Source: Salipiger sp. IMCC34102
GTDB lineage: Bacteria > Pseudomonadota > Alphaproteobacteria > Rhodobacterales > Rhodobacteraceae
Direction: 5' to 3'
Assembly (NCBI RefSeq): GCF_004145405.1
Contig: NZ_SELQ01000001.1
Coordinates: 310,001 to 374,000 of the forward strand
Length of the DNA stretch: 64,000 bases
Both the position numbers and the translations under genes were made by a program. Numbering within the stretch: position 1 is the first letter of the stretch; every line of letters begins with the position of its first letter. Shown piece after piece: positions 15,500 through 33,943 of this stretch. Below the pieces are notes generated by a model. It did not search any database, was not told where the DNA came from, and saw only the letters and a list, made by a program, of their open reading frames with translations.

Positions 15500-15893
15500 C
15501 GACTACACGGATCTGCCGCAGTCGGTCCGCGAGATTGCGGAGGTGATCGGTCGTAAGCTCGCGCTGGACCTCATCGCTGCCTTGCCGCAGTCAGGCAGCC
15601 GGCCCTGGCGTCGGATGCTCTACGTGCCGAAGAACCTGCCCGTCGATCACTGGCTGGTGCGCAAGCTGGGCTGGCACATGGCCCAGAAGCTCAGCCGCGC
15701 CTTCGCGGGGATGATCCTGCAGCCCGCCAACTGCCGCTCTATCGAGCGCGAGTTTTTCCGCAATCGCGCCATCCCCGAGCTGGTCGAGGATGGCATCCCT
15801 GTTGAGGAGGTTGCCGAGCTCACGCGGCTCTCGGCCTATCGCGTCCGCGAGCTCCTTTCCCTGGCCGCATCTGAGGAAGGTTCTGGCGCATGA
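15492..15893 (+). CDS. Mor-family transcriptional activator
   Basis: A 133-residue protein with the Mor (Mu middle-operon regulator) pattern: LPQSVREIAEVIGRKLALDL at the N-terminus, MLYVPKNLPVDHWL in the middle, and a C-terminal HTH (GIPVEEVAELTRLSAYRVRE). In Mu-like and many other phages such proteins bind as dimers and activate the next transcription phase. It lies at the end of the early run and directly before the lysis and packaging genes, so it is the best candidate for the late-gene activator. Confidence 0.75.
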   Translation: MSDDYTDLPQSVREIAEVIGRKLALDLIAALPQSGSRPWRRMLYVPKNLPVDHWLVRKLGWHMAQKLSRAFAGMILQPANCRSIEREFFRNRAIPELVEDGIPVEEVAELTRLSAYRVRELLSLAASEEGSGA

Positions 15894-19190: not shown

Positions 19191-19950
19191 GGGCACCGCG
19201 CTGCGCGTCGCCTCTCGGAAGGTCCGCATGGTCGCTCATCGGACCGGGTCCGCGGCCGATACGATCGGGGAGCTCGCGCCTGGCGTTGCGGTCTCCGGGC
19301 TGACGGCCGGTCAGTTCTCGGCGATCGACGCGATGGAGCACATGGTCAACTGTCTGGGCCCGGCCGACGTGTCGATCTCCGCCTGGACGACGGGACTTTA
19401 CGATGTGAAGCGCGCGGCCGAAATGCGCGCGAACGAGCAGCTGCGCAGCCTGCGGTTCATCCTCGATCGCGGCACCTTCGAGAAGAGCCCGAAGTTCGCG
19501 GGTCCGCTGATCCAGGCGGTCGGCCTCGAGGCGTTCCGGTGCGTGTCCGTTCATGCCAAGGTGGTGATCGTCGAGGGCGCGCGCGGTCGGGCCGTCATGC
19601 GGTCCTCGATGAACCTCAACAAGAACCTGCGGACTGAGCAGTTCGACATCGACGTCTGCGATCAGTTTGCTGATTTCTACCTGCGCTGGTTCGACGGGCT
19701 CTGGGAGGAGGCGGGGCGATCGCAGGACAACGTCGCCATCATGAAGGCGGTTTACGATCGGTTCGTGGAAGAAGCGCCAGAGCCGGATCCGGTTGACGAT
19801 CCGTTCTCAGCGGGTGAAGCCGTCCCGCTCCGGGACCCCTCTCGCTCCGGGACCCGTCCCGCTCCGGGACCCGTCCCGCCCCGGGACCCCTCTCTGGATG
19901 TCGATGATGATCTTGCCGGCCTCTCCCTCGGTGGCGGCTTCGATGCCTGA
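19183..19950 (+). CDS. phospholipase D-like (single HKD motif) phage protein
   Basis: A 255-residue protein. VSVHAKVVIVEG then RAVMRSSMNLNKNLRTEQFD matches one HxKx(n)SxxN phosphodiesterase motif of the PLD/nuclease superfamily. Active enzymes need two such motifs, so a dimer would be required. It lies between the methyltransferase and the small terminase gene, a place where PLD-like proteins occur in related prophages. The region encoding residues about 215-238 is a 17-nt tandem repeat, so the C-terminus is Pro/Arg-rich and probably variable. It overlaps the preceding gene by eight bases. Confidence 0.65.
   Translation: MAKGTALRVASRKVRMVAHRTGSAADTIGELAPGVAVSGLTAGQFSAIDAMEHMVNCLGPADVSISAWTTGLYDVKRAAEMRANEQLRSLRFILDRGTFEKSPKFAGPLIQAVGLEAFRCVSVHAKVVIVEGARGRAVMRSSMNLNKNLRTEQFDIDVCDQFADFYLRWFDGLWEEAGRSQDNVAIMKAVYDRFVEEAPEPDPVDDPFSAGEAVPLRDPSRSGTRPAPGPVPPRDPSLDVDDDLAGLSLGGGFDA
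19827..19894 (+). repeat. four tandem 17-nt units in the PLD-like gene
   Basis: Units at 19827-19843, 19844-19860, 19861-19877 and 19878-19894, consensus GCTCCGGGACCCGTCCC with one to three changes each. Seventeen is not a multiple of three, so each unit is read in a different frame. Inverted pairs such as GTCCCG-CTC-CGGGAC recur at the unit junctions. Confidence 0.9.
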
Positions 19951-20465
19951 TGGCGGGATCGGGCCCTACCACCTATCCGGTCGCCACCATCGCGAAGCTG
20001 TTGCGCCTCACCGAGCGTCGCGTCCAGCAGCTCTCGAAGGAGGGCGTGATCCCAAAGGCGGAGCGCGGCCGGTATGATCTCGTCACGGCGGTGCAGGGCT
20101 ACATCGGCTATCTGCAGGAGCGCGCGGCTGGTGCCGGTGATGGTGATAACGCAATCAACTACGCGGCCGAGAAGGCGCGGCGCATGCGGGCCGAAGCTGA
20201 TCTGAAGGAGATGGCGGTCCTGCAGCTGCGCGGGACGCTGATCGATGCGGAGGAGGCGGGGGCGGTCGCGGCTCTGCTCATGTCCGAGCTGAAGGCGAAG
20301 CTGTTGAACAACGCGCCGGTTCGGATCGCGGCCGCGGCGAAGAGCAGCCGGTCCGAGGCAGCTCTGAAGAAGATCATCAAGGCGGAGCTCTCCGACATCA
20401 TGGCCGGTCTCTCGAGCACGGACCTGGTGGCGCTCATGGGGGAGCCCGTCGAAGATGGAGTATAG
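19950..20465 (+). CDS. terminase small subunit (Nu1-like)
   Basis: A 171-residue DNA-recognition subunit of the packaging enzyme. The N-terminus has a MerR-like winged helix (TIAKLLRLTERRVQQLSKEG), which in lambda Nu1 binds the cos region. The rest is helical with many Ala/Lys residues (KARRMRAEADLKEMAVLQLR) for contact with the large subunit. The ATG overlaps the stop of the PLD-like gene and its end overlaps the large-subunit start. Confidence 0.85.
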   Translation: MAGSGPTTYPVATIAKLLRLTERRVQQLSKEGVIPKAERGRYDLVTAVQGYIGYLQERAAGAGDGDNAINYAAEKARRMRAEADLKEMAVLQLRGTLIDAEEAGAVAALLMSELKAKLLNNAPVRIAAAAKSSRSEAALKKIIKAELSDIMAGLSSTDLVALMGEPVEDGV

Positions 20466-22362
20466 CCCGGCTGCGCATCGGATGATGGCCTCGGCGCTGG
20501 CTGCGCTGCAGCCTCCGCCCGACCTTCGGCCGTCGGAGTGGGCGGAAAAGTCGGTCTACATCCCGGTCGGCAACGCGATTCCCGGTCTGATCCGGTTCGA
20601 CAATGCGCCTTACCAGCGCGAGCCGCTCGACATGACGGTCGATCCGTCCTGCACCCGGATCTCGCTCAAATGGGCGGCACAGGTCGGCAAGACGCAGGTC
20701 GCGCTTTGCGCGCAGTCCTACCGCATCGCGATGGACCCGACCTCGCAGATGATGATGCAGCCCTCGGAGGGCGATCTGCAGACCTGGCTGCAGACCAAGT
20801 TCAACCCGCTCGTGGAAGCCAACCCGGAGCTCGAGGAACGGCTTGCGGTCGCTCGGTCTCGGAAGGGCGTGAACAACAGCCGGATGAAGTCCTACCCGGG
20901 CGGTTTCATCATGTTCGCCTGGTCGGGATCTCCGAAGACCCAGCGGGGCCGGTCGGCGCCCTTCATCGTCGCGGACGAGACGGACGGTTACGACCGCACG
21001 GCCGAGGGGCATCCGGTGTCGCTGATCTGGCAGCGGGCCGCGACCTTCGGGGATCTGCGCAAGCTGCTCGAGATCTCGACGCCCACGGTCCGGGGCCTGT
21101 CTTGGATCGATGATGCCTACGAGCAGGGCGACCAGCGGCAGTTCCACGTCGGCTGCCCGCATTGCGGCGAGGGCCAGGTGCTGCAGTGGGCGAACGTGAA
21201 ATGGGACAAGGACGCGGACGGCAATCACCTGCCGGCGACCGCCTACTACCAGTGCGCGGCGAACGGCTGTGTCTGGTCGGACTCGGACCGCATCCAGGCG
21301 ATCCGGGACGCCGAGCGGCTCGGCTTCGGCTGGAAGGCGCAGAAGCCGTTTCTTGGCCACGCCAGCTATCACCTCTCGGAGCTCTACTCGTGCTTCCGAC
21401 GGCTGGGCGATGTCGTGCAGTCCTTCCTCGAGAAGAAGGCCAGCGACGATCTGCAGACCTTCGTGAACGTCTCGCTCGCCGAATGCTGGGAGGAGGAGGC
21501 GGAGCGGGTCGCGGCCGACGACGTGATGGCCCGGGTCGAGGATTGGGGGCAGAAGGTCCCGGCCGGCGTCGCCTGCATCACCGCCGGCGTCGACATGCAG
21601 GAGGACCGCCTCGAGCTCGAGCTCGTTGGCTGGGGGCTGGGCGAGGAAAGCTGGTCGCTCGACTACCAGGTGTTCTGGGGTGATCCGATGAAGGACGAGG
21701 TCTGGGATCTGGTCTTCGACTACCTGGGCCAGACCTGGGAGACGGAGACCGGCGCGACCTTGCGCTGCTCGGCCGGCGGCTTCGACACGGGCGGCTCCGG
21801 TGGTCTGACGCAGGCGGCGTATGAGCAGCTGCGCGGCAAGCAGCGGCGCGGGCTCTACGCGCTGAAAGGCGGTGGCACCTGGAACAAGCCGGTGGTGTCG
21901 GCGCCTTCGAAGGCGCGCAGCGGTCGGCGCTCGCGGCCCGTCATGCTGTTCTCGGTCGGGGTGAACGACGCGAAGCTGGTGGTCATGCGCCGGGTGAACC
22001 TCGAGACGCCCGGCCCGGGCTACTGTCACTTCCCGGCCGATCGGGATCCGGAGTTCTTCCTGCAGCTCACGGCCGAGCAGCTGGTGACCAAGCACCGGCG
22101 CGGCTTCCCGGTGCGCGCCTGGCACAAGACGCGGGAGCGCAACGAGGCGCTCGACTGCCGGGTCTACGCCTATGCGGCGCTGAAGATCGCGAACCCGAAC
22201 CTGGTGCATCGCCTGGCGCGGCTTGGACCGAAGGACGCGGACGAGGCGCCGGCTCCGGTCACCGACGACGAGCCGCCGGGGAACCCGCCAGAGGGAAAGA
22301 AGCGCTCGAAGCGGAATGTTGCGGCTCAAAGGCGGCGGAGGCGGCGCGCGCCTGGTCTCTGA
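20455..22362 (+). CDS. terminase large subunit (GpA family)
   Basis: A 635-residue packaging ATPase and nuclease. A Walker A-like motif AAQVGKT is at residues 74-80 and the Walker B FIVADETD near 170. A zinc-binding pair (CPHCGEG and CAANGC) lies near 232-270. The C-terminal half holds the nuclease domain (ITAGVDMQEDRLELELVGWG). The last 40 residues are basic. Length and motif order are normal for lambda GpA-type terminases. The 17-bp phage repeat lies at codons encoding GNPPE near the C-terminus. Confidence 0.95.
   Translation: MEYSPAAHRMMASALAALQPPPDLRPSEWAEKSVYIPVGNAIPGLIRFDNAPYQREPLDMTVDPSCTRISLKWAAQVGKTQVALCAQSYRIAMDPTSQMMMQPSEGDLQTWLQTKFNPLVEANPELEERLAVARSRKGVNNSRMKSYPGGFIMFAWSGSPKTQRGRSAPFIVADETDGYDRTAEGHPVSLIWQRAATFGDLRKLLEISTPTVRGLSWIDDAYEQGDQRQFHVGCPHCGEGQVLQWANVKWDKDADGNHLPATAYYQCAANGCVWSDSDRIQAIRDAERLGFGWKAQKPFLGHASYHLSELYSCFRRLGDVVQSFLEKKASDDLQTFVNVSLAECWEEEAERVAADDVMARVEDWGQKVPAGVACITAGVDMQEDRLELELVGWGLGEESWSLDYQVFWGDPMKDEVWDLVFDYLGQTWETETGATLRCSAGGFDTGGSGGLTQAAYEQLRGKQRRGLYALKGGGTWNKPVVSAPSKARSGRRSRPVMLFSVGVNDAKLVVMRRVNLETPGPGYCHFPADRDPEFFLQLTAEQLVTKHRRGFPVRAWHKTRERNEALDCRVYAYAALKIANPNLVHRLARLGPKDADEAPAPVTDDEPPGNPPEGKKRSKRNVAAQRRRRRRAPGL
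22278..22294 (+). repeat. 17-bp phage repeat, copy 1
   Basis: GGGGAACCCGCCAGAGG inside the 3' end of the terminase gene, 21 bases before the start of the next gene. Identical to copies at 25096, 28915 and 32687. Confidence 0.9.
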
Positions 22363-22912
22363 CGCGGAGTATGGTTTGCGGCACATCCCCACATCGATCA
22401 AGGCGGGCCTGACGTTCGCGCTCGATCTCGACCTCGTCGACTATCCCGCGCCCGAATGGGCCGCGGTGGTGATCCTGTCCGGGCCCGAGAAGATCGAGCT
22501 CCAGTCCTCGCCGTTCGGCGATCTGCATCGCTTCGCCGAGCCGCCAGCGGTCACGGCGGATTGGGCGCCGGGTCTCTACGCGTTCACGCTCCGGGTGCTC
22601 TCGAACGGCGACGTGCTCGAGATCGAGGCGGGGCAGCTCAAGGTCTCGCAGGATCTGGCGTCGGTCGATGGCGCGCTCGATCCGCGCTCGCATGCGCAGC
22701 GCATGCTGGATGCCATCGAGGCGGTCCTCGAGCGCCGGGCAACGCTCGACCAGGAATCCTACACCATCGGCGGGCGGTCCTTGGTCCGGACGCCGATCGG
22801 GGAGCTGAAAAGCCTGCGCGAGTCCTATCGGCGCGAGGTCCAGAAGCTGTCCGGTGACGGCAAGGCCCGGCGGCTGCTGGGCCGGCGCGTGTCGGTGAGG
22901 TTCGGTCGCTGA
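22316..22912 (+). CDS. head completion / gpW-like connector protein
   Basis: A 198-residue protein starting MLRLKGGGGGARLVSDAEYG and overlapping the terminase gene by 47 bases. The C-terminal part (about residues 118-180: AHAQRMLDAIEAVLERRATL, then SYTIGGRSLVRTPIGELKSL and RESYRREVQ) resembles the helical gpW-type adaptor that sits between terminase and portal genes in lambda-like phages. The N-terminal 100 residues are beta-rich and not recognised. An earlier start in the same frame seems unlikely because it lies in terminase-coding DNA. Confidence 0.65.
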   Translation: MLRLKGGGGGARLVSDAEYGLRHIPTSIKAGLTFALDLDLVDYPAPEWAAVVILSGPEKIELQSSPFGDLHRFAEPPAVTADWAPGLYAFTLRVLSNGDVLEIEAGQLKVSQDLASVDGALDPRSHAQRMLDAIEAVLERRATLDQESYTIGGRSLVRTPIGELKSLRESYRREVQKLSGDGKARRLLGRRVSVRFGR

Positions 22913-24537
22913 TGCTGGGGTTCGGGAAACGCAAAGGCGCGCAGCCGACGGTCCGCTCGGAGCCTCCCCTGGCCACGACTGCGGAGGCGCCGGCGAAGGC
23001 GGGCCCGGGCTCGTTCCGGATCCGCCGGGTGCGCAGCCTCGGACCGGCTGCCCGGGACGCGGGTCCGGCCGTGTCCTTCATGTCGTCGACGCCGATGTCG
23101 GCCGACGCGATCGTCGATCGCAACCAGCGGGTGCTGGTGGCGCAGTCGCGCGAGCAGTCGACCGTCAACGACTACATGAAGTCCTTCCTGCGCATCGCCG
23201 AGCGGTCGATCGTTGGGGCTAACGGGATCATCCTTCAGGCGCAGACCCGCAAGCGCGATGGGACGCTCGATGTCGAGGCCAACAACGCGCTCGAGGCCTG
23301 GTGGGCGAAGTGGTGCCGGGCCGAGCATTGCGACGTGACCGGCAAGCGGAGCTTCCGCCGGATCTGCAAGGCGATCGTCGGGGGTGCCGCGCGCGACGGT
23401 GAGTTCATGGTGCGGGAGGTGCGCGGCCGCGACGCGGGGCCGATGCGGTATGCGCTGCAGGTCCTGGATCCCCAGCGGTGTCCGGTCGACTACAACGTCG
23501 ATCGCATGCCGAACGGCCGCTTCGTGCGGCAGGGGATCGAGTTCAACCGGGCCGGCCGTCCGCTGGCTTACTACTTCGCCTCGGACGATCCGTCCGTGGC
23601 CGGCTATTCGTTTGGCGGGCGGTCTCTCGATCGCATCCCGGCCGAGCAGATCATTCACGGCTTCGTCGAGGATGTGCTGGGCCAGCGCCGGGGGCTGCCC
23701 TGGGCGGCGACGGCGCTCTGGCGCCTGGGCATGCTGGACGGCTTCGAGAAGGCGGCTCTGAAGAATGCGCGGACCGCGGCCTCGCTCGGGGGCTTCATCG
23801 AATGGGAGACCGGCGAGGGTCCCGATCGGGACGAGGAGCTCGAGGACGAAGAGCTCTACTTCGAACCCGAAGAGGGGCTCTATCAGGAGCTGCCGCCTGG
23901 GGCGCGGGTCAAGAACGTGCCGAGCCAGTATCCGACGGGCGAGTTCACGCCCTTCCATAAGGCGATGCTCCGCGGTGCCGGTGCCGGCATGGGCGTGTCC
24001 TACGTGTCCTTCGCCAACGACCTTGAGGGGGTCAACTTCTCGTCGATCCGGCAGGGTGTCGTGGACGAGCGCGATCACTGGATGGATCTGCAGGAGTGGC
24101 TGATCGAGGTCCTGGTCGATCGCGTCTACCGCGGCGCGCTCGAGCCTGCCCTGCTGATGGGGATCGTGGTCGGCGACGGGGTGCGCCTCGGGCCGGAAAA
24201 CCTCGAGCGGTATCAGGCGGTGCGCTGGCAGCCGCGGCGCTGGCCCTGGGTCGATCCCACCAAGGACATCGCGGCCGAGATCTCGGCGAAAGACAACCTG
24301 CTGACTTCGCCGTCCGAAATCATCCAGCGCCGCGGCGGCGATCCCGACACGGTCTGGCGGCAATACGCCCAGGACATCGCGGCGATGCGCGCAGCCGGCA
24401 TGCCGGAGGAATTCATCATGGCCGCGGTGCTGGGCGTCGCGCCGGCGTCGAACCCGAAGGCCGGGATGCCTAAGGCGCCGGCGGGCGAAGGCGGCGAAAC
24501 CGAAGAAAAGGAGACCGACGATGGTGAAGATGAATAA
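22912..24537 (+). CDS. phage portal protein (lambda GpB family)
   Basis: A 541-residue portal subunit that forms the dodecameric DNA channel at the capsid vertex. It has family features: DRNQRVLVAQSREQSTVNDY near residue 70, a central VLDPQRCPVDYNVD block, and SYVSFANDLEGVNFSSIRQG near 365. The C-terminal 40 residues are acidic and disordered. The ATG overlaps the stop of the gpW-like gene (TGATG), and its end overlaps the next start by 17 bases. Confidence 0.93.
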   Translation: MLGFGKRKGAQPTVRSEPPLATTAEAPAKAGPGSFRIRRVRSLGPAARDAGPAVSFMSSTPMSADAIVDRNQRVLVAQSREQSTVNDYMKSFLRIAERSIVGANGIILQAQTRKRDGTLDVEANNALEAWWAKWCRAEHCDVTGKRSFRRICKAIVGGAARDGEFMVREVRGRDAGPMRYALQVLDPQRCPVDYNVDRMPNGRFVRQGIEFNRAGRPLAYYFASDDPSVAGYSFGGRSLDRIPAEQIIHGFVEDVLGQRRGLPWAATALWRLGMLDGFEKAALKNARTAASLGGFIEWETGEGPDRDEELEDEELYFEPEEGLYQELPPGARVKNVPSQYPTGEFTPFHKAMLRGAGAGMGVSYVSFANDLEGVNFSSIRQGVVDERDHWMDLQEWLIEVLVDRVYRGALEPALLMGIVVGDGVRLGPENLERYQAVRWQPRRWPWVDPTKDIAAEISAKDNLLTSPSEIIQRRGGDPDTVWRQYAQDIAAMRAAGMPEEFIMAAVLGVAPASNPKAGMPKAPAGEGGETEEKETDDGEDE

Positions 24538-26566
24538 GGCGCTTCTCGCGTCGGCGCTTGTGGGCTGTGCGATGGTCCGCTCGCTGACGCCCGAGCAGCT
24601 GAACGGCAACCGCGGGGCCGGGGCCCTGCACCGGACCGTGGCGGTGCGCAACGTCGACGAGGAGGCGCGCACGGTCGAGGTGGCCTTCTCGTCGGAGGAG
24701 CCGGTCGAGCGCTGGTTCGGCTTCGAGGTCCTGGATCATTCGGCCCAGGCGGTGGACCTCGGCCGGTTGCGCGATGGCGCGGCCGTGCTCTGGAACCATA
24801 ACCACGACGTCCAGATCGGGGTGGTGCTGTCGGCGACGATCGGCGGGGATCGTCGCGGTCGCGCCACGCTCAAGTTCGGGCGCAGCGGCCGCGCGGCTGA
24901 AATCTTCCAGGACATTCTCGACGAGGTGATCCGCCATGTCTCGGTCGGCTACCGCATCAAGGCGATCCGCACCGAGGAGAAGGACGGCGAGCCGGATCAG
25001 GTCACGGTTACCGAGTGGGAGCCTTTCGAGATCTCGATGGTGTCGGTCCCGGCCGACGCCACGGTCGGGGTCGGCCGTTCGGCAAAAGATCCTGCGGGGA
25101 ACCCGCCAGAGGCGGGGCCTGCGCCCGGTGGCGATAGTGGCGCCAGTCAAACCAGCGCCGAGCCCGGCGCCCGTCAACAAGAGGGACGCGAATTTATGGA
25201 ACGGATTCTCCGGGACGCAGCCGGTAACCTGGTGCGCGCCAAGGTCGACGAGGACGGCAAGATCGTCGAAGTTCTCGAAATGCTCGAGCGCGCAGCCGAG
25301 ACGCAGGCGCTTGTCCGCTCCGGCACCGAAGCCGAGCGCACCCGCGTCGCGGCGCTGCTCGAGCTGGGCACCCAGCACGGCGCGGTCGAGGATGCGCAGC
25401 GCGCCATCCGCGACAATCAGTCGGTCTCGGATTTTACCCGCCACCTGCTCGACACCCATGCCGAGCGCCGCGGCGGTGAAGGCGCCCGCTCCGGCGGCAC
25501 CGGCGCCCTCGATGACGACGCCGGCGTGATTGGCATGTCCGAGGCCGAGGCGGGCCGCTTCAGTTTTCTGCGGGCGCTGCGGGCTCTGGCGAACCCGAAC
25601 GATCGGCGCGCGCAAGAAAACGCCGCCTTCGAGCGCGAGGCCTCCGCGGCCGCCGCACGGGCCTCGGGTCGTGAGGCGCAGGGGATCATGGTCCCGGCCG
25701 ACGTTCTGCGCCGTGCGCTGAACACCGGCACCTCCGGCGCGACGCCCGGCGATACCGGCGGCTATGCGATCGCCACGGATCTGCTGTCGCAGTCCTTCAT
25801 CGACATGTTCCGCAACCGCTCGGTCCTGCTGGGCATGGCGACGCCGCTCGGTGGCCTGGTTGGCAACGTCGATATCCCGACGCAGACCAACGGTGGCCAG
25901 GGCTACTGGCTCGGCGAGGACCAGGAGGCTGGCGAGAGCAACATCGATCTGGGCAACGTGCAGCTCTCGATGAAGACCGTCGGGGCCTATTCGGAAATGA
26001 CCCGCTCGTTCCTGAAGCAGACCTCGATCGACGGTGAGGCGCTTGTGCGCCGTGATCTGGCGCAGTCGCTGGCCCTGACGCTCGACTATGCCGGCTTCTA
26101 CGGCACCGGCTCGGCCACCATGCCGCTCGGCCTCGCCAACCTGACCGGGATCAACGCGGTGCCCTTCGCCGGCGTTCAGCCGACCTATGCCGAGCTGGTG
26201 CAGATGGAGAGCGAGATCGCGGCCGACAATGCCGACGTCGACGCGATGGCTTACATCGGCACCTCGGGTTTCCGCGGCGCGATGAAGACCTCCCAGAAGT
26301 TCGCGGGCACCAACGGTGCGCCCGTCTGGGAGGCCGGCGGCACGGTGAACGGTTACCGCGCCGAGATCACCAACCAGGTGCAAGCAGGCGACGTGTTCTT
26401 CGGCAACTTCGCCGACATGCTGCTCGGCATGTGGGGCGGTCTCGACCTGACGGTCGATCCCTACTCGGAATCGAAGCGCGGCCGCGTCGCGATCGTCGCC
26501 TTCCAGGACGCCGATATCGCCTACCGCCACGTCGAGTCCTTCTGCCTCGGCCGTCAGGGCGTCTGA
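24521..26566 (+). CDS. prohead protease - major capsid protein fusion
   Basis: A 681-residue polyprotein. Residues about 35-195 form an HK97-type prohead protease (VAFSSEEPVERWFGFEVLDH, VLWNHNHD at 89-96, then EPFEISMVSVPADA near 170-183). Residues about 195-225 are a Gly/Pro/Ser linker that contains the 17-bp repeat. Residues 226-681 are an HK97-fold major capsid protein (SYSEMTRSFLK-like region GAYSEMTRSFLKQTSID, C-terminal VDPYSESKRGRVAIVAFQDA). AAGGAG precedes the start at 24521. An internal ATG at 25196 with GAGGG upstream could give the capsid protein alone. Self-cleavage at the linker is expected. Confidence 0.9.
   Translation: MVKMNKALLASALVGCAMVRSLTPEQLNGNRGAGALHRTVAVRNVDEEARTVEVAFSSEEPVERWFGFEVLDHSAQAVDLGRLRDGAAVLWNHNHDVQIGVVLSATIGGDRRGRATLKFGRSGRAAEIFQDILDEVIRHVSVGYRIKAIRTEEKDGEPDQVTVTEWEPFEISMVSVPADATVGVGRSAKDPAGNPPEAGPAPGGDSGASQTSAEPGARQQEGREFMERILRDAAGNLVRAKVDEDGKIVEVLEMLERAAETQALVRSGTEAERTRVAALLELGTQHGAVEDAQRAIRDNQSVSDFTRHLLDTHAERRGGEGARSGGTGALDDDAGVIGMSEAEAGRFSFLRALRALANPNDRRAQENAAFEREASAAAARASGREAQGIMVPADVLRRALNTGTSGATPGDTGGYAIATDLLSQSFIDMFRNRSVLLGMATPLGGLVGNVDIPTQTNGGQGYWLGEDQEAGESNIDLGNVQLSMKTVGAYSEMTRSFLKQTSIDGEALVRRDLAQSLALTLDYAGFYGTGSATMPLGLANLTGINAVPFAGVQPTYAELVQMESEIAADNADVDAMAYIGTSGFRGAMKTSQKFAGTNGAPVWEAGGTVNGYRAEITNQVQAGDVFFGNFADMLLGMWGGLDLTVDPYSESKRGRVAIVAFQDADIAYRHVESFCLGRQGV
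25096..25112 (+). repeat. 17-bp phage repeat, copy 2
   Basis: GGGGAACCCGCCAGAGG in the protease-capsid linker, read in the same frame as copy 1 (GNPPE). With the bases that follow it forms a CCCGCC-AGA-GGCGGG hairpin. It lies 83 bases before the internal capsid ATG. Confidence 0.9.
25196..26566 (+). CDS. possible internal translation start for the major capsid protein alone
   Basis: ATG at 25196 (MERILRDAAGNLVRAKVDED) has GAGGG about ten bases upstream and lies exactly at the protease-capsid domain border. The product would have 456 residues, a normal length for an HK97-type major capsid protein with its N-terminal scaffold (delta) region. This would uncouple the amount of capsid protein from protease. 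It is inferred from sequence only; proteolytic processing could serve the same end. Confidence 0.4.
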   Translation: MERILRDAAGNLVRAKVDEDGKIVEVLEMLERAAETQALVRSGTEAERTRVAALLELGTQHGAVEDAQRAIRDNQSVSDFTRHLLDTHAERRGGEGARSGGTGALDDDAGVIGMSEAEAGRFSFLRALRALANPNDRRAQENAAFEREASAAAARASGREAQGIMVPADVLRRALNTGTSGATPGDTGGYAIATDLLSQSFIDMFRNRSVLLGMATPLGGLVGNVDIPTQTNGGQGYWLGEDQEAGESNIDLGNVQLSMKTVGAYSEMTRSFLKQTSIDGEALVRRDLAQSLALTLDYAGFYGTGSATMPLGLANLTGINAVPFAGVQPTYAELVQMESEIAADNADVDAMAYIGTSGFRGAMKTSQKFAGTNGAPVWEAGGTVNGYRAEITNQVQAGDVFFGNFADMLLGMWGGLDLTVDPYSESKRGRVAIVAFQDADIAYRHVESFCLGRQGV

Positions 26567-26633
26567 TCCTCCCTCGATCCGGATCTAGCCGGGTCGAGTT
26601 CCTCCCTCCCTCTCATCACTCGAAGGTGTGAAC

Positions 26634-27053
26634 ATGGCAGACAAGAAGAAGATCGAGCTGAAGCTGACCTCGGCCGTCGGCATCAATGGCAAGCTCGTGA
26701 CGCCCGGCAAGGACAAGGCGAAGCCCGACGTCGTGGTCTCCGAGACCGTCGCGCGCAACCTCCTGCAGCGCGGCAAGGCGAAGCTCTTTGGCGACGAGGA
26801 GCTCGAAGGGGTCGAGACCAACCCGGACGGCTCCGCGGTCGGTGTCGACCTGGGCGCGAAGGAGGGCTTCCCGCCTCCCGGCAAGGACGCCCAGAACCGC
26901 TCCGGCAGCCCGCTCGACAACGGCGCGAACGTGCCCGAGAAGGGCGCGAACGAGACGCCCGGTGAAGGCTCCGGCGCTCCCTCCGGCACGGACGCGAAAG
27001 CCACCGGCGGCACCGGGGCGAAGGCAGCCGGCGGCAAGGGCGCCAAGAAGTAA
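26634..27053 (+). CDS. hypothetical head-region protein with Gly/Ala-rich tail
   Basis: A 139-residue protein. The first 60 residues look folded (KKKIELKLTSAVGINGKLVT then VVSETVARNLLQRGKAKL). The last 65 residues are Gly/Ala/Lys-rich and low in complexity (GGTGAKAAGGKGAKK). GAAGG lies seven bases before the ATG at 26634, which decides it over the GTG at 26628. Position after the capsid gene suggests a head accessory protein. Confidence 0.65.
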   Translation: MADKKKIELKLTSAVGINGKLVTPGKDKAKPDVVVSETVARNLLQRGKAKLFGDEELEGVETNPDGSAVGVDLGAKEGFPPPGKDAQNRSGSPLDNGANVPEKGANETPGEGSGAPSGTDAKATGGTGAKAAGGKGAKK

Positions 27054-27056
27054 GCT

Positions 27057-27392
27057 ATGCCCGCGCCCGATTGGGAAAACCTTGGCGAGTTCTTCTCGCC
27101 CGACGAGTTCGCCGTGCCGGTCACCATCCGGCGCGGCGATGTCGTGTTGTGGGAGGGCTCCGCGATCTTTGAGGAGCAGAACGGGCCCTCGTCGCTGGGC
27201 GACCTGCAGCATGATCTGACCGAGCCGCACCTGTTGCTCCCGTCGGCCGACGCGGCCGCGGTCGACGATGGCGATGTGGCCGTGGTCGACGGGAAGACTT
27301 GGGACGTCGTCTCGGATCCGGAGCACGACGGCAGCGGCCTCGCGCGGATCCGTCTCTCGAAGCCCACCAAGGCCTATCGTGCTCAGTTTTGA
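27057..27392 (+). CDS. head-tail joining protein (FII-like)
   Basis: A 111-residue protein starting MPAPDWENLGEFFSPDEFAV. The order, length and elements (an N-terminal F-x-x-D-E-F-A helix, GDVVLWEGSAIFEEQNG, then DGDVAVVDGKTWDVVSDPEH and a final beta strand) fit lambda FII-type head-tail attachment proteins. It follows the head gene and precedes the gpZ-like gene, as in lambda. Confidence 0.7.
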   Translation: MPAPDWENLGEFFSPDEFAVPVTIRRGDVVLWEGSAIFEEQNGPSSLGDLQHDLTEPHLLLPSADAAAVDDGDVAVVDGKTWDVVSDPEHDGSGLARIRLSKPTKAYRAQF

Positions 27393-27930
27393 CCTCGATG
27401 GCGACGCGCTCGAGCGGCTTGCGACCGAGTTCGCCGCGTCGCCTAGCGAGGTGGAGAAGGCCTATGGTGCCGCGCTTCGCCGCACCGCCAGCAACATCCG
27501 CCGGCTCTCGTCTAAGGGTCTGAAGAGCGAGCTGGGGCTGCGGAACGCGACGGCTCTGCGCCGGCGGCTGAAGGAGTATCGCTACCGCAAGGGCCGGGGT
27601 CAGTCCGTCGTGCTGTGGTATGGGGCGAACGATCTGCCGGTGTCGGCCTTCAAGGGTCGGCCGCGCGAGGTGGCCGGTGGGATCGAGATGAACGGGACCA
27701 CGCTGGTCGGTGCGTTCTTCGCGCGCCCGGGCGGCAAGAAGCGCGGTGTCTACCGCCGGGCCGGGGACGGGCGCTTTCCGATCGTCGAGGCGCGGATGCC
27801 GGTCGCGGACCGGATGATGATCTACCTGGAGGACGAGGTGTTCGTCGATATCGACACGCTGTTCCTCCGCAACTTCGAGTCCGAGATCCGGGCTCGCACA
27901 ATCTTCGGAGTGGGAAATGGAAAACGTTGA
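27379..27930 (+). CDS. minor tail protein Z-like
   Basis: A 183-residue protein. The GTG start at 27379 overlaps the end of the FII-like gene by 14 bases. GRPREVAGGIEMNGTTLVGA, KKRGVYRRAGDGRFPIVEAR and MPVADRMMIYLEDEVF match the gpZ pattern of lambda-like phages, a tail-connector protein needed for DNA ejection. A basic N-terminal helix (RLSSKGLKSELGLRNATALR) is typical. Confidence 0.75.
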   Translation: MLSFDLDGDALERLATEFAASPSEVEKAYGAALRRTASNIRRLSSKGLKSELGLRNATALRRRLKEYRYRKGRGQSVVLWYGANDLPVSAFKGRPREVAGGIEMNGTTLVGAFFARPGGKKRGVYRRAGDGRFPIVEARMPVADRMMIYLEDEVFVDIDTLFLRNFESEIRARTIFGVGNGKR

Positions 27931-28441
27931 TCTGGACGCGGCCCTCGAGGCCGTCCGGGCGGGCTTCGCGGAGCGCTTCCCTGGCGTGAACGTGGTGATC
28001 GCCGAGGACGCCGAAGACGACGAGCTGCCGGTGCCGGCGCTGGTCTGCCAAATCTCGGAAATCGAGCCGGATCCGGACGGCGATCCGCTCACCGGACAGT
28101 TCCCATGCCTGGTCCGGGTGCAGGCGCGGATCGTCCTGGGGAGGCGCACACCGGCGGTCCGCATGCAGACGCTGAAGCTGGCGGGCGCCGTCGCCGCCCA
28201 GGTGCATGCGGAGCGGTTCGGGGTGAAGTGGGGCGCGGCGACGGTGATCGCGGTGGAACCGGACGAGTTCGCACCGGCCGCGGCGCGGTTCGACGTCTGG
28301 CTGGTTGAGTGGGTGCATGCGGCTCGCCTCGGCGATGCCTTCGAGCTGCCGCCGGAGTTCCTGCCGTCCGAGGTCCTGGTGTCCCACGCGCCGCGCGTCG
28401 GGATCCCGCATGAGGCGGATTACGAGGAGGCGCAGCCGTGA
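27917..28441 (+). CDS. hypothetical tail completion protein
   Basis: A 174-residue protein starting MENVDLDAALEAVRAGFAER. The C-terminal half contains a beta-alpha pattern (WGAATVIAVEPDEFAPAAAR) typical of gpU/tail-terminator-like proteins. Location between the Z-like and baseplate V genes supports a tail-terminator or connector role, but the family match is weak. Confidence 0.55.
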   Translation: MENVDLDAALEAVRAGFAERFPGVNVVIAEDAEDDELPVPALVCQISEIEPDPDGDPLTGQFPCLVRVQARIVLGRRTPAVRMQTLKLAGAVAAQVHAERFGVKWGAATVIAVEPDEFAPAAARFDVWLVEWVHAARLGDAFELPPEFLPSEVLVSHAPRVGIPHEADYEEAQP

Positions 28442-28914
28442 GCCTCGCTGTCTCCGAGCTGATGCGCATCGTCGAGCGGATGGTGATCATCGGCACCGTG
28501 GTCGAGCTCGATCCGACGGCCGCGCGCGTGAAGGTCTCCCTGGGGCCGGGTGTCGTCTCCGGTTGGCTGCCGTTTGCGCAGCTCGGGTCAAAGGACGTGC
28601 GGATCTGGGTCCCGCCGGTGAAGGGGTCGCAGGTGGTCGTGTTCTCGCCTGGCGGCAACACCGCCCGCGGCATCGTCTATCCCGGTCCCTACGATGGGGT
28701 TGCTCCGGACGATCGGGACAGCGCCGTCAGCCTGTCGATGCCGGGTCTCGATCTGTCGGTGGTCGGTGGTGTCGCGACGATCGAGCTCAGCACGATGAAC
28801 GTGAAGGGCAACATCATCGTGGACGGCGATGTGGTGGCCTCCGGCGTCAGCCTGACCGGCCACACGCACAGCGGCGTGACCGGCGGCGGCTCGAACACGG
28901 GCGGGCCGTCGTAA
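28438..28914 (+). CDS. baseplate assembly protein V (tail spike)
   Basis: A 158-residue central spike protein of the contractile tail. The N-terminal OB-like domain (IIGTVVELDPTAARVKVSLG then WVPPVKGSQVVVFSPGGNT) is followed by a beta-helical stem and the apex sequence GHTHSGVTGGGSNTGGP, whose histidines bind iron at the spike tip in P2 gpV. The GTG start overlaps the stop of the preceding gene. Confidence 0.9.
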   Translation: MSLAVSELMRIVERMVIIGTVVELDPTAARVKVSLGPGVVSGWLPFAQLGSKDVRIWVPPVKGSQVVVFSPGGNTARGIVYPGPYDGVAPDDRDSAVSLSMPGLDLSVVGGVATIELSTMNVKGNIIVDGDVVASGVSLTGHTHSGVTGGGSNTGGPS

Positions 28915-28931
28915 GGGGAACCCGCCAGAGG
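28915..28931 (+). repeat. 17-bp phage repeat, copy 3
   Basis: GGGGAACCCGCCAGAGG directly after the TAA of the spike gene and 32 bases before the next gene start. Confidence 0.9.
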
Positions 28932-28963
28932 CGCGGCGCCGCGCGCGCGTCCAACTTGCCGGC

Positions 28964-29302
28964 ATGCGCGGTATGAATTCAGAAACGGGGCGGGCGATCG
29001 GTGGCATGGCGCATCTGCGGCAGTCCATCCGCGATATCCTGTCCACACCGATCGGCTCACGGGTCCTGCGGCGCGACTACGGGTCTCGCCTCTATCAGCT
29101 GGTCGACCGTCCTTATTCGGCCGGCCTCCGGCTGCAGCTCATCGCTGCGACGGCCGAGGCGATCGCCGCTTGGGAGCCGCGGGTGGTGGTCAAGCGGGTC
29201 CGCATCGATCGGCTCGCGCTGGGCGAGCTGGTCGTGTCGCTGACCATGACGCTCGTGGCCGAGGAGCGCGATCTGGTTCTGGACGGGGTGGTGGTGTCGT
29301 GA
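28964..29302 (+). CDS. baseplate protein W (GPW/gp25 family)
   Basis: A 112-residue baseplate wedge protein. HLRQSIRDILSTPIGSRVLR then RDYGSRL is the GPW/gp25 lysozyme-like fold signature. It joins the wedge to the sheath in P2-like and T4-like tails. The ATG at 28973 is an alternative start three codons in; neither has a clear ribosome binding site. Confidence 0.9.
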   Translation: MRGMNSETGRAIGGMAHLRQSIRDILSTPIGSRVLRRDYGSRLYQLVDRPYSAGLRLQLIAATAEAIAAWEPRVVVKRVRIDRLALGELVVSLTMTLVAEERDLVLDGVVVS

Positions 29303-30201
29303 GCGGTTTCTCTGCAATCAATCTGCCGAAGCTGCCGGCACCTGCAGCTGTCGATCTGCTCGACGTGGAGACGATCCTGTCGGAAATGAAGGCCGAGGCG
29401 CTCGCGCGTGATCCGTCCCTCGCGGATGCGCTCGCGCTCGAAAGCGAGCCGGCCGTTAAAATCCTTGAGGTCGCGGCCTACCGCGAGCTGCTCATCCGTC
29501 AACGGATCAACGAGGCTGTCCGCGCAACCATGCTCGCTTTCGCAACCAGCAGCGACCTCGACCACATCGGGGCGCTGTTCGGTGTCGAGCGGCTTGTGGT
29601 CGTGACTGCAGATCCTGACGCCTTTCCGCCTGTCGAGGCGGTGCTCGAAGACGACGAGCGGCTCCGCACCCGGATCCAGCTGTCGCTCGAAGGCTTTTCA
29701 ACGGCCGGGACTTATGGCGGCTATCGGTTCTTCGCTCTGTCCGCATCGGCGCTGGTGCGCGACGTGCAGATCCTCAATCCCGAGCCCGGCCTGGTCCGGG
29801 TCTTTGTCCTCTCCGAAGAAGGCGACGGCGTCCCGGACGCTGATCTGTTGGCCGGCGTCGATGCGGCGCTGGACGACGAGGATGTGCGGCCTTTGTCCGA
29901 CCGTGTTGAAGTTCTGCCTGTCGACCTGGTCGATTTCTCGATCGAGGCGACGCTCACGATCGACGACGGGCCGGATTCGTCGGTGGTCATCGCCGCGGCC
30001 AAGGCTGCGCTCCTGGCCTTCCTCGAAACTCGACGGCTGGTCGGGCGTAACGTTCCGCGCGCCGGCATCATCGCGGCTCTCTACCAGGCGGGCGTTCAGA
30101 ATATCGCTCTGGCCTCTCCGGCTGCCGACGTGGTGGTCGGAGACGGTCAGTCGGCCCGATGGACGGCCGTGCAGCTGACGGACGGAGGCGCTGGTGTCTG
30201 A
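29299..30201 (+). CDS. baseplate protein J
   Basis: A 300-residue baseplate wedge protein, P2 gpJ family. The GTG start at 29299 overlaps the gpW stop and the N-terminus reads MSGFSAINLPKLPAPAAVDL. EILSEMKAEAL-type and ATSSDLDHIGALFGVERLVV sequences are characteristic (residues 25-105), followed by GTYGGYRFFALSASALVRDV and DVRPLSDRVEVLPVDLVDFS. Confidence 0.92.
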   Translation: MSGFSAINLPKLPAPAAVDLLDVETILSEMKAEALARDPSLADALALESEPAVKILEVAAYRELLIRQRINEAVRATMLAFATSSDLDHIGALFGVERLVVVTADPDAFPPVEAVLEDDERLRTRIQLSLEGFSTAGTYGGYRFFALSASALVRDVQILNPEPGLVRVFVLSEEGDGVPDADLLAGVDAALDDEDVRPLSDRVEVLPVDLVDFSIEATLTIDDGPDSSVVIAAAKAALLAFLETRRLVGRNVPRAGIIAALYQAGVQNIALASPAADVVVGDGQSARWTAVQLTDGGAGV

Positions 30202-30784
30202 TCCGCGATCGCTCTTGCCCTCCGGTGCGACCGAAGCCGAGCGGGCACTCGAGGGTGCCGTGTCGCGCATTGGTCTCGTCGCTTTGCCGGAAGCGATGAA
30301 TTCGCGCGCTGAAACGGCCGCGCCCGATCACCTGCCGTTTCTCGCCTGGGCGTTCTCGGCCGACACCTGGGACCCGTCTTGGCCGGAAGCCGTGAAGCGG
30401 CAGGTCGTTTCGGGCGCGGTCGAGGTCCACCGCCGCAAGGGGACGCTTGGGGCTCTGCGTCGGGCGCTCGCCGATATGGGCTATGGTGCCGCGGTCATCC
30501 GCGAATATCGCGACCGGCCGCGCTACGGGAACGGCGCGACCTATGGGACGATCGGCTCGGCAGAGCAGTGGGAGTCCTGGGCCGACTATCGGATCGAGCT
30601 GGGCGAAACGGTCAGCCGCGCAGACGTCGCGGCCGTGTTCGCCCGGGCGCAGCGGATCGCGCCGGTGCGCTGCCGGCTCGTGTCCGTCAACTTCCGCCGT
30701 GTGGCTTTGCAATACGGTGACGATCTCGTGGCCGGCACTGGGCAGGCCTACGGCGACACAATCACGCAAGAGGTGGCAGCATGA
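30194..30784 (+). CDS. phage tail protein I
   Basis: A 196-residue baseplate/tail-fibre attachment protein of the P2 gpI family. LPFLAWAFSADTWDPSWPEA and HRRKGTLGALRRALADMGY are the characteristic blocks. A GTG start at 30194 overlaps gene J by eight bases. Confidence 0.9.
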   Translation: MSDPRSLLPSGATEAERALEGAVSRIGLVALPEAMNSRAETAAPDHLPFLAWAFSADTWDPSWPEAVKRQVVSGAVEVHRRKGTLGALRRALADMGYGAAVIREYRDRPRYGNGATYGTIGSAEQWESWADYRIELGETVSRADVAAVFARAQRIAPVRCRLVSVNFRRVALQYGDDLVAGTGQAYGDTITQEVAA

Positions 30785-31743
30785 CGCAATTGGTGAAACT
30801 GGCCGAGCAGGGTCTCTGGCCTGCGGACATCCACGAAATCCAAAACGGGGACGATTTCAACGGGGGCCCGCCTGATCTCGACAACAGCGAGGGGCATGCG
30901 AACGTCCAGGCGGCAGCCCTCGCCGCTCGGACGCAGTTCCTGCTGACCTTGTCACGCGGTGCTGCTCGCGCGGTGATTTCCCGCCGAACGTCTCCGCCCA
31001 CGATCCCACCGACCGCTGGTGACGCCTATCTCATCGCTTCGGGCGCTTCTGGGCTTTGGGCAGGCTTCTCCGAGAACATCGCGGTCTGGTCTGGATCGTC
31101 TTGGCAGATTTATCCCTTGCAGGAGGGGCAGATCATCATGGTCGGGGGCGGGTCGGTTTATATGATGACCGGTGGCATTGCATCGCCGTGGCTTGCGAAT
31201 TTTGGGGCCGCTGGTCCGGTTGAATTAGCTTCGAAGCCGGAAGTTCTAGCGGGGCAAGATAACAGCCGAGTCGTCACTCCGCAAAACCTGGCATTTGCCC
31301 TAGGAAAGACCGGTGATGGCTTGCCGCTGAACCTTAAGGTCTCGAACAAGGACCAGCCGTCGCAGTCCATACCTCATACGATTGTCACGCGCTGCGACAA
31401 CATGGTCGCGGTCGAAGGCAATGCGCAGGGCCTGTGGAACGGTCAGCAGATGGTGGTCACCCCAGACACGCTCGGCGTCTGGGGCATCTTCTGTTCACTT
31501 AATACGAACGGCGAAATGGGCGAAGGTGCGTATGTTTTCAAGAACGGCGAGCGGATCGGTCATTACCAGCTAGGCTCGCAGGTCGGACCTTCGAACGTCT
31601 GCGCCGTGACGGTGTTCGCTTATCTCACCGAGCCGGGCGACGTCATCGAATTCTATCACGAGCACCGGACCGGCTCGCCCGTGCTGAACAACGGTTCCGA
31701 CGCCTATATGGTTCGCCTCTTGCCTTACCTCGACCCCAACTAA
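30781..31743 (+). CDS. tail fibre protein (DUF2793 domain)
   Basis: A 320-residue receptor-contact protein. The N-terminal 50 residues attach to the baseplate. DAYLIASGASGLWAGFSENI then AVWSGSSWQIYPLQEG at about 82-118 is a DUF2793 domain, common in Rhodobacterales phage and GTA fibres. The C-terminal 140 residues look like a jelly-roll head domain (VVTPDTLGVWGIFCSLNTNG, then EPGDVIEFYHEHR). Lower GC at third positions from about 31180 onward suggests that the tip domain was acquired separately, as is usual for host-range domains. Confidence 0.8.
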   Translation: MTQLVKLAEQGLWPADIHEIQNGDDFNGGPPDLDNSEGHANVQAAALAARTQFLLTLSRGAARAVISRRTSPPTIPPTAGDAYLIASGASGLWAGFSENIAVWSGSSWQIYPLQEGQIIMVGGGSVYMMTGGIASPWLANFGAAGPVELASKPEVLAGQDNSRVVTPQNLAFALGKTGDGLPLNLKVSNKDQPSQSIPHTIVTRCDNMVAVEGNAQGLWNGQQMVVTPDTLGVWGIFCSLNTNGEMGEGAYVFKNGERIGHYQLGSQVGPSNVCAVTVFAYLTEPGDVIEFYHEHRTGSPVLNNGSDAYMVRLLPYLDPN

Positions 31744-31761
31744 ACCGAAGGATCCACAGCT

Positions 31762-32325
31762 ATGATTTCCATCGAAGTCGATAAGGCGCACCTCTCCGCC
31801 GCCGTCGCAATGCTCGAAGAGGGCGGGGCCGCAGTTGATCGGGTGGCCGGCGGGACGGTCTATCTGTCCGGGCCGGCCGACGCGGCTGCGGCCGAGGCGC
31901 TCTTGGTCGGATTGGCCGAACGCGCCGGGACGGAAGAGCTGGTGTCATCGCGTCGTTCGGCTATGGCCAAGCTGTCCGCCGTGTCGCAAGCCATCATGGC
32001 ACCGCTGACCGACGGGTATTCCACTGAAGAAATGGCTTCTTGGGGCCGCAAGGCTGACGCAGCGCGGTCGTTCGATCCCCTCAACCCTGACCCGATTATC
32101 TTGCATGAGGCCGCATCGTCTGGCGAAGAGCTCGCGACGCTCGCAGCGGTGATCGTGGCGAAGGCCGACGCCTTCGAGGCGCTGGTCGCTACGGTGACGG
32201 GCACTCAGCGTCGCGTCCGAAAGGAGCTCGCGGCCGCGCAGGACCAAGATGCGGTTGATGCGGTTCTCTCCCAGGCGCTGGTCGAAATGGCGGCGCTGGC
32301 CGAGCAGGCCGCTTCGGCGTCCTGA
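31762..32325 (+). CDS. fibre-associated protein (possible tail fibre assembly chaperone)
   Basis: A 187-residue, Ala-rich helical protein starting MISIEVDKAHLSAAVAMLEE. The position immediately after the fibre gene is that of tail-fibre chaperones. TDGYSTEEMASWGRKADAAR resembles the short repeats of DUF4376-like assembly proteins. Assignment is by place and weak similarity only. Confidence 0.5.
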   Translation: MISIEVDKAHLSAAVAMLEEGGAAVDRVAGGTVYLSGPADAAAAEALLVGLAERAGTEELVSSRRSAMAKLSAVSQAIMAPLTDGYSTEEMASWGRKADAARSFDPLNPDPIILHEAASSGEELATLAAVIVAKADAFEALVATVTGTQRRVRKELAAAQDQDAVDAVLSQALVEMAALAEQAASAS

Positions 32326-32326
32326 C

Positions 32327-32680
32327 TTGAGCGACTACACCGCAGCCGATCCGGCGTTTGCCCGCCTGCCCGGTTCGATCCGGTACCGAGTGGGCGCGGC
32401 TTTTGCCTGGGAGCTGGGCTGCGAGGGATCCGGGCTGCTTGTTCCGATCCCGCAAGGCTACACCTTCGACGTTTCGATTCCGCGCGGGCTGCGCTGGGCA
32501 TTTGACCCGCACGACGCGCGGTTCTTGAAAGCGGCCGCGGTCCACGACAATCTGCTTGAGCGCGGTTGGGATCGGGTAAGTGCGGCCGGTCCGTTCCATC
32601 AGGCTCTGAAAGCCGACGGTGTCGGCCGGCTCGCTCGCCTGGCCATGCTCCTGGCCGTCGCCTTGTGGCGCTTCGGCTAG
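32327..32680 (+). CDS. DUF1353 family phage protein
   Basis: A 117-residue protein that would use a TTG start at 32327, one base after the stop of the preceding gene. GSGLLVPIPQGYTFDVSIPR then AAAVHDNLLERGWDRVSA matches DUF1353, whose conserved residues (SIPR and VHD) suggest a small peptidase- or hydrolase-like fold. The C-terminus has a hydrophobic stretch (LARLAMLLAVALWRFG), perhaps membrane-associated. The start has no Shine-Dalgarno sequence. Confidence 0.7.
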   Translation: MSDYTAADPAFARLPGSIRYRVGAAFAWELGCEGSGLLVPIPQGYTFDVSIPRGLRWAFDPHDARFLKAAAVHDNLLERGWDRVSAAGPFHQALKADGVGRLARLAMLLAVALWRFG

Positions 32681-32686
32681 AAGCCC

Positions 32687-32703
32687 GGGGAACCCGCCAG
32701 AGG
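32687..32703 (+). repeat. 17-bp phage repeat, copy 4
   Basis: GGGGAACCCGCCAGAGG in the gap before the tail sheath gene, 52 bases before its ATG. Confidence 0.9.
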
Positions 32704-32755
32704 AATGCGGACGTCGATCCGGTGATCTTGCCTGCAAATCCATAGCGAGGTGATC

Positions 32756-33943
32756 ATGGCTGGCAGTTTCCTTCATGGGGTCGAGGTTCTCGAAGTCGAG
32801 TCCGGGACCCGTCCGATCCGTGTCGTGAACACGTCGGTGATCGGCATCGTCGGCACGGCGCCGGATGCCGACGCCGAGGCGTTCCCGCTCAACAAGCCGG
32901 TTCTCGTGGCCGGCTCGCGCACCGAAGCGGCGAAGCTGGACACGGTCGGCGATGGCAACGGCACCCTGCCGGCCGCGCTCGACGGGATCTTCGACCAGAT
33001 CGGCGCCGTCGTCGTCGTGGTTCGTGTCGACGAGGGCGTGGACGAGACCGAAACGCTGGCAAACGTGATCGGGGGCGTGAATGCCAACGACGGGACCTTT
33101 GAGGGGGTGCATGCCCTGGCCGGCGCCGAGAGCGTCGTGGGCTTCGCCCCGCGTATCCTGATCGCGCCGGGCTTTACCCATCAGCGTCCCGACGATCTCG
33201 CCAACCCCGTGATCGCGGAGCTCGAGGGCATCGCCGGCCGGATGCGCGCGGTGGTCATCGCCGACGGGCCCAACACCACCGATGATGCCGTGATCGCCGC
33301 GACCGAGGACTACGGCTCGGACCGCGTCTACCTGGTCGATCCCTGGCACCTGGTGTTCGTCGATGGCGTCACCGTCGCGCAGCCGCCTTCCGCGCGCGTC
33401 GCCGGTGTGATCGCGCGCACCGATAACGACGTGGGCTTCTGGGCGTCGCCGTCGAACCGGTTCATTAACGGCATCGTCGGTCTGTCCCGCCCCGTCGACT
33501 TCACGCTGGGCGATCGCGCCTCCCGCGCGAACCTGCTGAACGAGGCCGGCGTCGCCACGACGATCCGGCACGACGGCTTCCGCCTCTGGGGCAACCGCTC
33601 GCTCTCGGCCGACGCGAAGTTCGCCTTCTTGTCCGTGCGCCGCACGGCCGATGTGCTGAACACCTCGCTGCAGCGCGCCCACCTCTGGGCGGTCGATCGC
33701 GGGATCAACCGGACCTACGTCGACGATGTCGTCGATTCCGCAAACGGGTTCCTGCGGGATCTGCAGGCGCAGGGGGCGATCCTGGGTGGTCGCTGCTGGG
33801 CTGATCCGGATCTGAACACCCCGTCCGCGATCGCCGACGGCAAGGTCTACTTCAACTTCGACTTCACTCCGGTGTATCCGGCGGAGCACATCACGTTCCG
33901 GTCGATCCTGGTCAACGACTATATCGAGGAGGTGCTCGCGTAA
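32756..33943 (+). CDS. tail sheath protein (P2 FI-like)
   Basis: A 395-residue contractile sheath subunit. MAGSFLHGVEVLEVESGTRP with the VxVxExxxGxRPI pattern and the conserved C-terminal block FNFDFTPVYPAEHITFRS identify the P2 FI/T4 gp18 family, as does the central VYLVDPWHLVFVDG. GCGAGG lies five bases before the ATG at 32756; a GTG six bases earlier is less likely. The gene begins the sheath-tube-tape cluster. Confidence 0.95.
   Translation: MAGSFLHGVEVLEVESGTRPIRVVNTSVIGIVGTAPDADAEAFPLNKPVLVAGSRTEAAKLDTVGDGNGTLPAALDGIFDQIGAVVVVVRVDEGVDETETLANVIGGVNANDGTFEGVHALAGAESVVGFAPRILIAPGFTHQRPDDLANPVIAELEGIAGRMRAVVIADGPNTTDDAVIAATEDYGSDRVYLVDPWHLVFVDGVTVAQPPSARVAGVIARTDNDVGFWASPSNRFINGIVGLSRPVDFTLGDRASRANLLNEAGVATTIRHDGFRLWGNRSLSADAKFAFLSVRRTADVLNTSLQRAHLWAVDRGINRTYVDDVVDSANGFLRDLQAQGAILGGRCWADPDLNTPSAIADGKVYFNFDFTPVYPAEHITFRSILVNDYIEEVLA

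Follow-up and report, generated by a model that had tools for sequence, protein, structure and literature searches.

The stretch of DNA analysed here, referred to as the window, comprises 64 000 nucleotides of Salipiger sp. IMCC34102. It contains a prophage which corresponds to IMG/VR contig 2882006519_000001 (34,650 bases, with three stretches 100% identical to the window) and which, according to the matching of this contig, ends at about window positions 6647 and 41296. The region 40097–41296 reads, by eye, as a tyrosine integrase. Four exact copies of the 17-mer GGGGAACCCGCCAGAGG occur on the plus strand, at 22278, 25096, 28915 and 32687. An earlier analysis, which had only the letters of this DNA at hand (the sequence-only reading), had described these four same-strand copies, and the search of window and genome confirmed them. 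Copies 1 and 2 are coding and, as also described there, both read GNPPE, in the C-terminal tail of the terminase and in the linker between protease and capsid, respectively. The features are as follows; activator sites, -10 hexamers and transcription starts are predictions, and scores are those of a matrix from which the window copies were held out.

15492–15893, plus strand: predicted late transcriptional activator, 133 aa, with a C-terminal helix-turn-helix (LSAYRVRELL); PHROG 836 'late transcriptional activator', E 3.6e-19
20455–22362, plus strand: terminase large subunit, contains copy 1; PHROG 15, E 2.6e-219
22278–22294, plus strand: copy 1 of the 17-mer, predicted activator site (-49 to -33), within the 3' part of the terminase gene; score 33.4
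22315–22320, plus strand: predicted -10 hexamer AATGTT of copy 1; predicted start ~22327
24521–26566, plus strand: head maturation protease fused to major head protein, contains copy 2; PHROG 617 and 80
25096–25112, plus strand: copy 2, predicted activator site, inside the protease-capsid gene; score 30.0
25133–25138, plus strand: predicted -10 hexamer GATAGT of copy 2; predicted start ~25145, ahead of the internal capsid ATG at 25196
28915–28931, plus strand: copy 3, predicted activator site, directly 3' of the spike gene stop; score 27.4
28952–28957, plus strand: predicted -10 hexamer CAACTT of copy 3; predicted start 28964, which is the baseplate W ATG (near-leaderless mRNA)
28964–29302, plus strand: baseplate wedge subunit (gpW type); PHROG 43, E 5.1e-38
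32687–32703, plus strand: copy 4, predicted activator site, intergenic, ahead of the tail sheath; score 37.3
32724–32729, plus strand: predicted -10 hexamer GATCTT of copy 4; predicted start ~32736
32750–33943, plus strand: tail sheath; PHROG 23, E 2.5e-120

The minus strand of the window contains no exact copy, and none arose in 100 dinucleotide shuffles of the window. With up to three mismatches allowed, a single extra site is found in the window (47928–47944, minus strand, three mismatches). The host genome (3.58 Mb) has the same four exact copies and no further one, and a reversed-pattern control gave no match in it. Two other repeat-like features were seen in this genome. A tandem array with a period of 17 bases (CCGTCCCGCTCCGGGAC type) lies at window 19820–19904, within the open reading frame 19183–19950. 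A site on another contig (G000:C42:2928–2970, minus strand; G000 is the window genome) consists of an element-like sequence with a -10 (GGGGAAACCGCCAGAGGAA), and perhaps belongs to another phage or a remnant.

Exact copies of the 17-mer are present in ten viral-contig stretches and in 35 stretches of GTDB genomes. Among 394 genomes of the window's family, two contain it exactly: the window's own (four copies) and G086 (eight within 28 kb). Related prophages have about 63–80% nucleotide identity to the window in aligned pieces; the element is nevertheless exact or nearly so. Protein scans for relatives yielded 63 loci with the sheath and 44 with the terminase. Many of these loci carry the element in a lineage-dependent spelling; others, mostly more distant, are without it. 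A pattern search for related elements gave 133 hits, from which 12 without GGAA were dropped. Five of the 121 kept look like chance matches and were left in (window 1450, L062:8364, L067:1943, L085:4855 and L147:1259).

The gene borders at which these elements lie were assigned by tblastn with the window proteins. Five borders account for 98 of the 121 elements: the joining gene (26), baseplate W (25), the capsid (20), the sheath (20) and the 3' end of the activator gene (7); 23 elements were assigned to none. This is the opposite of a random scatter in related genomes, which the sequence-only reading had named as the evidence that would count against it. In the window, unlike in several relatives, no element follows the activator gene. 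Copies in other arrangements were also seen. In G086, two exact copies with a -10 face away from the late genes (L060:213 and 589, plus strand), about 4 kb from the activator, and by eye no clear gene follows them. Upstream of the activator, L135, L136 and G255 have copies on the opposite strand.

A constant feature follows the element. Counting positions from its end, A is found at position 22 in 95% and T at position 26 in 91% of the 121 elements. Both bases are present in 110, compared with 0–14 for hexamers at other offsets from 1 to 45. We take these bases to be -11A and -7T of the bacterial -10 hexamer. By border, the -10 is present in 94 of the 98 assigned elements and in 16 of the 23 others. 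After thinning to elements with flanks less than 60% identical (n = 89), 79 have the A/T pair (other offsets: mean 2.8, largest 9); elements are dependent through the kinship of the phages, which this thinning and the permutation described below reduce in part. The ten remaining elements of the thinned set lack the -10 at the expected offset. Among these ten are the activator-end elements of G086, G397 and L151, and the W element of G402.

With -7 set at position 26, the 17-mer extends from -49 to -33 and +1 falls on position 33, at which A is the most frequent base (49%, n = 121). Further conserved bases are AA at -32/-31 (83% and 66%), which like the A/T signature is free of the search pattern, and GG at -49/-48 (84% and 93%), which is only partly set by it. 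As the pattern fixes most of positions -41 to -33, it accounts in part for their invariance. The consensus GG.G....C.CC is centred at -43.5, with the left G (-46) reaching only 63% and the right half being fixed by the pattern. A matrix built from 94 elements without the window copies scores the four copies at 27.4–37.3 and the next window site at 8.6; the maxima in 20 shuffles were 3.5–17.4. The full pattern of element and -10 occurs at least once in 86 of the 394 family genomes, compared with about 50 for the reversed-pattern control, which has three matches in G358. Only three genomes have at least three full patterns on one contig: G000, G086 and G255.

While the distance from element to -10 is constant, that from element to gene varies by site: 33–34 bases for W, 47–68 for the sheath, 60–90 for the capsid and 54–236 for the joining gene, the last measured to a homologous codon rather than to an established start. 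For the window, the distances of 21, 83, 32 and 52 bases between the copies and ATGs at 22316, 25196, 28964 and 32756 had been given before and are correct for the ATGs chosen. ATG 22316, taken there as a gpW-like start, falls inside the predicted -10 of copy 1 (22315–22320), so a transcript from this promoter could not use it as its start codon. Of the 25 baseplate W sites, 22 have the first base of the ATG at position 33 and three at position 34. The predicted transcription start thus falls on the ATG or on the base preceding it, and the baseplate W mRNA should begin in this way at all 25 sites.

The same arrangement is found in four cultured phages: ECO1230-10 of E. coli, MQ-4 of Serratia, Mica of Burkholderia and PPpW-3 of Pseudomonas. 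Their common gene order is activator, lysis, terminase, joining, portal, capsid, baseplate, sheath. Each has five copies in a spelling of its own (e.g. GACAAACCCCAAGAAGAA, CGGCAAACCCACAAGAGGAACC), one each at the end of the activator gene, between the terminase and joining genes, within the capsid gene, ahead of W and ahead of the sheath; in PPpW-3, the fifth copy deviates from the consensus of that phage. In 18 of 20 copies, A and T occur at the offset shared by the spelling group (9/10 and 9/10; next best offsets 3 and 4), and the repeat search in these phages made no demand for A/T. Late gene order, activator family and own-spelled copies at matching borders are thus shared with the window; the operator spelling differs, as does the fifth copy at the activator end, which is missing in the window. 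A terminator-like hairpin lies directly 5' of the sheath copy in all four cultured phages. In a wider set, such a hairpin precedes only three of 19 sheath elements (background 40/4000). Mica has a gene annotated as putative RNA polymerase alpha subunit (L192:26302–26520, minus strand, at most 73 aa), which might bear on activation by alpha contacts.

Spelling is nearly uniform within a phage and different between phages. At the eight variable positions of the element, different sites of the same phage are 92.9% alike (78 pairs, 29 phages), while the same site is 66.3% alike between phages (676 pairs). None of 5000 site-stratified permutations reached the observed uniformity. Such a pattern is expected if one trans-acting protein reads all sites of a phage; copying between sites is an alternative to a single reader for the uniformity within a phage. 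G397 and G402 have mixed spellings within the phage, and a reader would therefore tolerate some change.

A candidate for the reader is the 133-residue protein encoded at 15492–15893. Mor and C of phage Mu match PHROG 836 at 1.2e-10 and 2.1e-11, over their C-terminal halves; their best profile is PHROG 532, with PHROG 836 second. The Pfam Mor family (PF08765) does not match the window protein at E 0.01, nor any other protein of the window's genome, and we therefore base the kinship on PHROG and likeness of working rather than on membership of the Pfam family. An AF2 model of the protein has a pLDDT of 78.9 and a pTM of 0.57. Foldseek gave no significant match for the predicted fold (best E 0.37) and VIA only a common helix-turn-helix arrangement (best Z 7.2), with Mor absent among the matches listed by either.

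A PHROG 836 gene was found in six of 14 element-bearing records: the window genome, its IMG/VR copy, G086, G397, G402 and G403. The eight others are six virus fragments of 4–27 kb and the genomes G404 and G405, which have one exact copy each and no PHROG 836 match; these two copies may be due to chance. Of the 19 terminase loci that extend 5 kb or more upstream, 18 have an activator homologue, one of them being this phage and several being close relatives. The canonical element with a -10 is present in 14 of the 18. L161 and L164 have the activator with differently spelled repeats, L163 has it with a single 19-base repeat pair only, and L171, a contig ending in the terminase, has it and no element. 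The nineteenth locus, L173, has neither activator nor element. In G000, G086 and G255, a strong PHROG 836 gene lies on the contig of the element cluster, inside the cluster in G086 and G255 and about 6.4 kb before it in G000. PHROG 836 matches, many of them weak and to the C-terminal part only, occur in 106 of the 394 family genomes and element clusters in three, so that most such genes go with other spellings or with none. G086 has a second, diverged PHROG 836 gene elsewhere (G086:C3:153210–153554). Several far relatives (L161, L162, L164, L112, L121, L126 and L127) have other repeats with A/T at the -10 places, for example TGCCATCCCGCACAATGAC in L161 (two exact copies and one with a single change). 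As this search demanded A/T at the -10 places, the register is partly by construction; these repeats are perhaps operators of diverged activators.

We consider it very probable (about 0.88) that the four copies are the activator-binding part of four activator-dependent phage late promoters and that the Mor/C-like protein is their reader. The 17-mer, at about -49 to -33, would take the place of a -35 element. The promoter would be completed by a weak -10 (nA...T) at a fixed distance, with transcription starting about 33 bases after the 17-mer. The activator of the prophage would bind the 17-mer and enable host RNA polymerase with the main sigma factor to open the promoter. Once the activator is made, late in induction, all four promoters would be opened and four head and tail units expressed: joining/portal, capsid, baseplate and sheath. 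The earlier suggestion of a regulatory element is supported, in the specific form of a promoter.

Late promoters may also be read by another factor, either a sigma factor or cofactor such as a GcrA-like protein, or an activator of the Ogr/Delta type. Proteins of the GcrA family act in alphaproteobacteria as cofactors of the main sigma factor, the prophage contains a GcrA-family match (9567–10025, minus strand; PF07750, E 4.3e-8), and MQ-4 has an ogr/delta-like gene. However, the recurrent partner of the elements is the PHROG 836 gene. According to annotation only, none of the four cultured phages has a GcrA gene, and ECO1230-10, Mica and PPpW-3 have no ogr/delta gene, yet each has five sites. 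We regard another factor as unlikely.

The remaining alternatives are still less probable. Short homologies marking the joints of modules and favouring exchange between phages, as had been proposed for this locus, would be consistent with copies at gene borders with unrelated flanks, but the relatives show the same borders, and a -10 at fixed spacing is unexpected for a recombination site. Protein identity to the window varies from gene to gene in a similar way for each partner. Across copy 2, it is nearly flat from protease to capsid (65 to 60 in G086, 78 to 81 in P070, 54 to 58 in L156; the largest drop, in L140, is from 70 to 56). Across copy 1, identity is lower for the joining protein than for the terminase in every one of the 14 partners having both, which looks like a difference in rate and not like a switch of partner. 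Break-points in identity did not line up with the copies, as judged at the protein level for 12 genes and 19 relatives with many gaps. A function as module joints is thus highly improbable.

A signal for translation or at the RNA level (a start-associated sequence, a ribosome-loading site or a nut-like site) would agree with copies that precede gene starts on the coding strand, and with AGAGG, which resembles a Shine-Dalgarno core. The distance to the gene, however, varies and is too long for ribosome binding. A common RNA hairpin was also considered and rejected, as single-sequence folds of the element plus 45 bases share no structure by eye. With the -10 fixed in addition, we give such a signal very little credence. 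Repressor-bound stoperators, short asymmetric repeats of a kind known from L5 and Cluster A (mentioned in the available part of PMC3203893), would match the single orientation in the window; they are scarcely to be expected, as a -10 at promoter spacing accompanies every window copy and the gene that recurs alongside the elements belongs to an activator family.

Promoters that depend on an activator of this type are already known from the scheme of phage Mu. Among the matches listed in a search of the open-licence literature, no paper reports the 17-mer, the late promoters of Rhodobacteraceae prophages or the promoters of ECO1230-10. Nor did we meet, in the parts of that literature available for the matches listed, this operator, the set of borders, two promoters inside genes or a leaderless W start. 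The elements provide a sequence-level late-promoter map for a wide group of myophages whose late transcription is absent from the same literature among the matches listed. They also give exact predictions of late starts, including one at or one base before the baseplate W ATG, and a naturally occurring set of activator-operator pairs with which the DNA specificity of Mor/C-like proteins can be tested. A broader view is that phages of Alpha-, Beta- and Gammaproteobacteria have conserved one regulon architecture, with five fixed borders, a Mor/C-like activator and a baseplate mRNA that is near-leaderless, and that activator and operators have co-diverged into lineage spellings. The spelling would then be a compatibility code that limits exchange of the late module, which is the opposite of a joint promoting recombination. 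We offer this tentatively, as an idea with the odds somewhat against it.

The sequence-only reading had compared the copies with the start-associated sequences of mycobacteriophages. Those of Cluster K are likewise short repeats, mostly in one orientation, with a consensus absent from the named host genome; their typical distance to the start codon that follows is 3–7 bp, and they belong to the non-structural genome half (PMC3203893, available part). The element described here precedes structural genes, at 33–34 bases from W and more elsewhere, and its spacing is fixed to the -10 and not to the gene. The likeness does not hold.

The comparison with phage Mu goes further. According to the accessible portions of the sources, the dyad bound by Mor is centred at -43.5 in Pm, which has a -10 and no -35 (PMC4287176), and C acts through a related site at four late promoters (PMC4287176, PMC4461284). 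The promoters Plys, PI, PP and Pmom of Mu are activated by C, and Pm is activated by Mor. Shared with the window are a gene for a Mor/C-like activator, several late promoters with a -10 and, as far as those portions describe it, a site upstream of or overlapping the -35 position. The window differs in its operator sequence, in being an integrase prophage, in the best profile of its activator (PHROG 836 instead of PHROG 532) and in having its predicted promoters before joining, capsid, baseplate W and sheath genes, two of them inside genes. The C box of Mu matches the Mu sequence exactly once, at 27298, and with two mismatches before the endolysin gene and three before gene I. Its AACCC resembles part of the 17-mer, but by eye this likeness is out of register with the -10, and we give it no weight. 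A site at the 3' end of the activator gene is present in seven relatives and in the four cultured phages, where the lysis genes come next; in Mu, similarly, the endolysin gene follows C.
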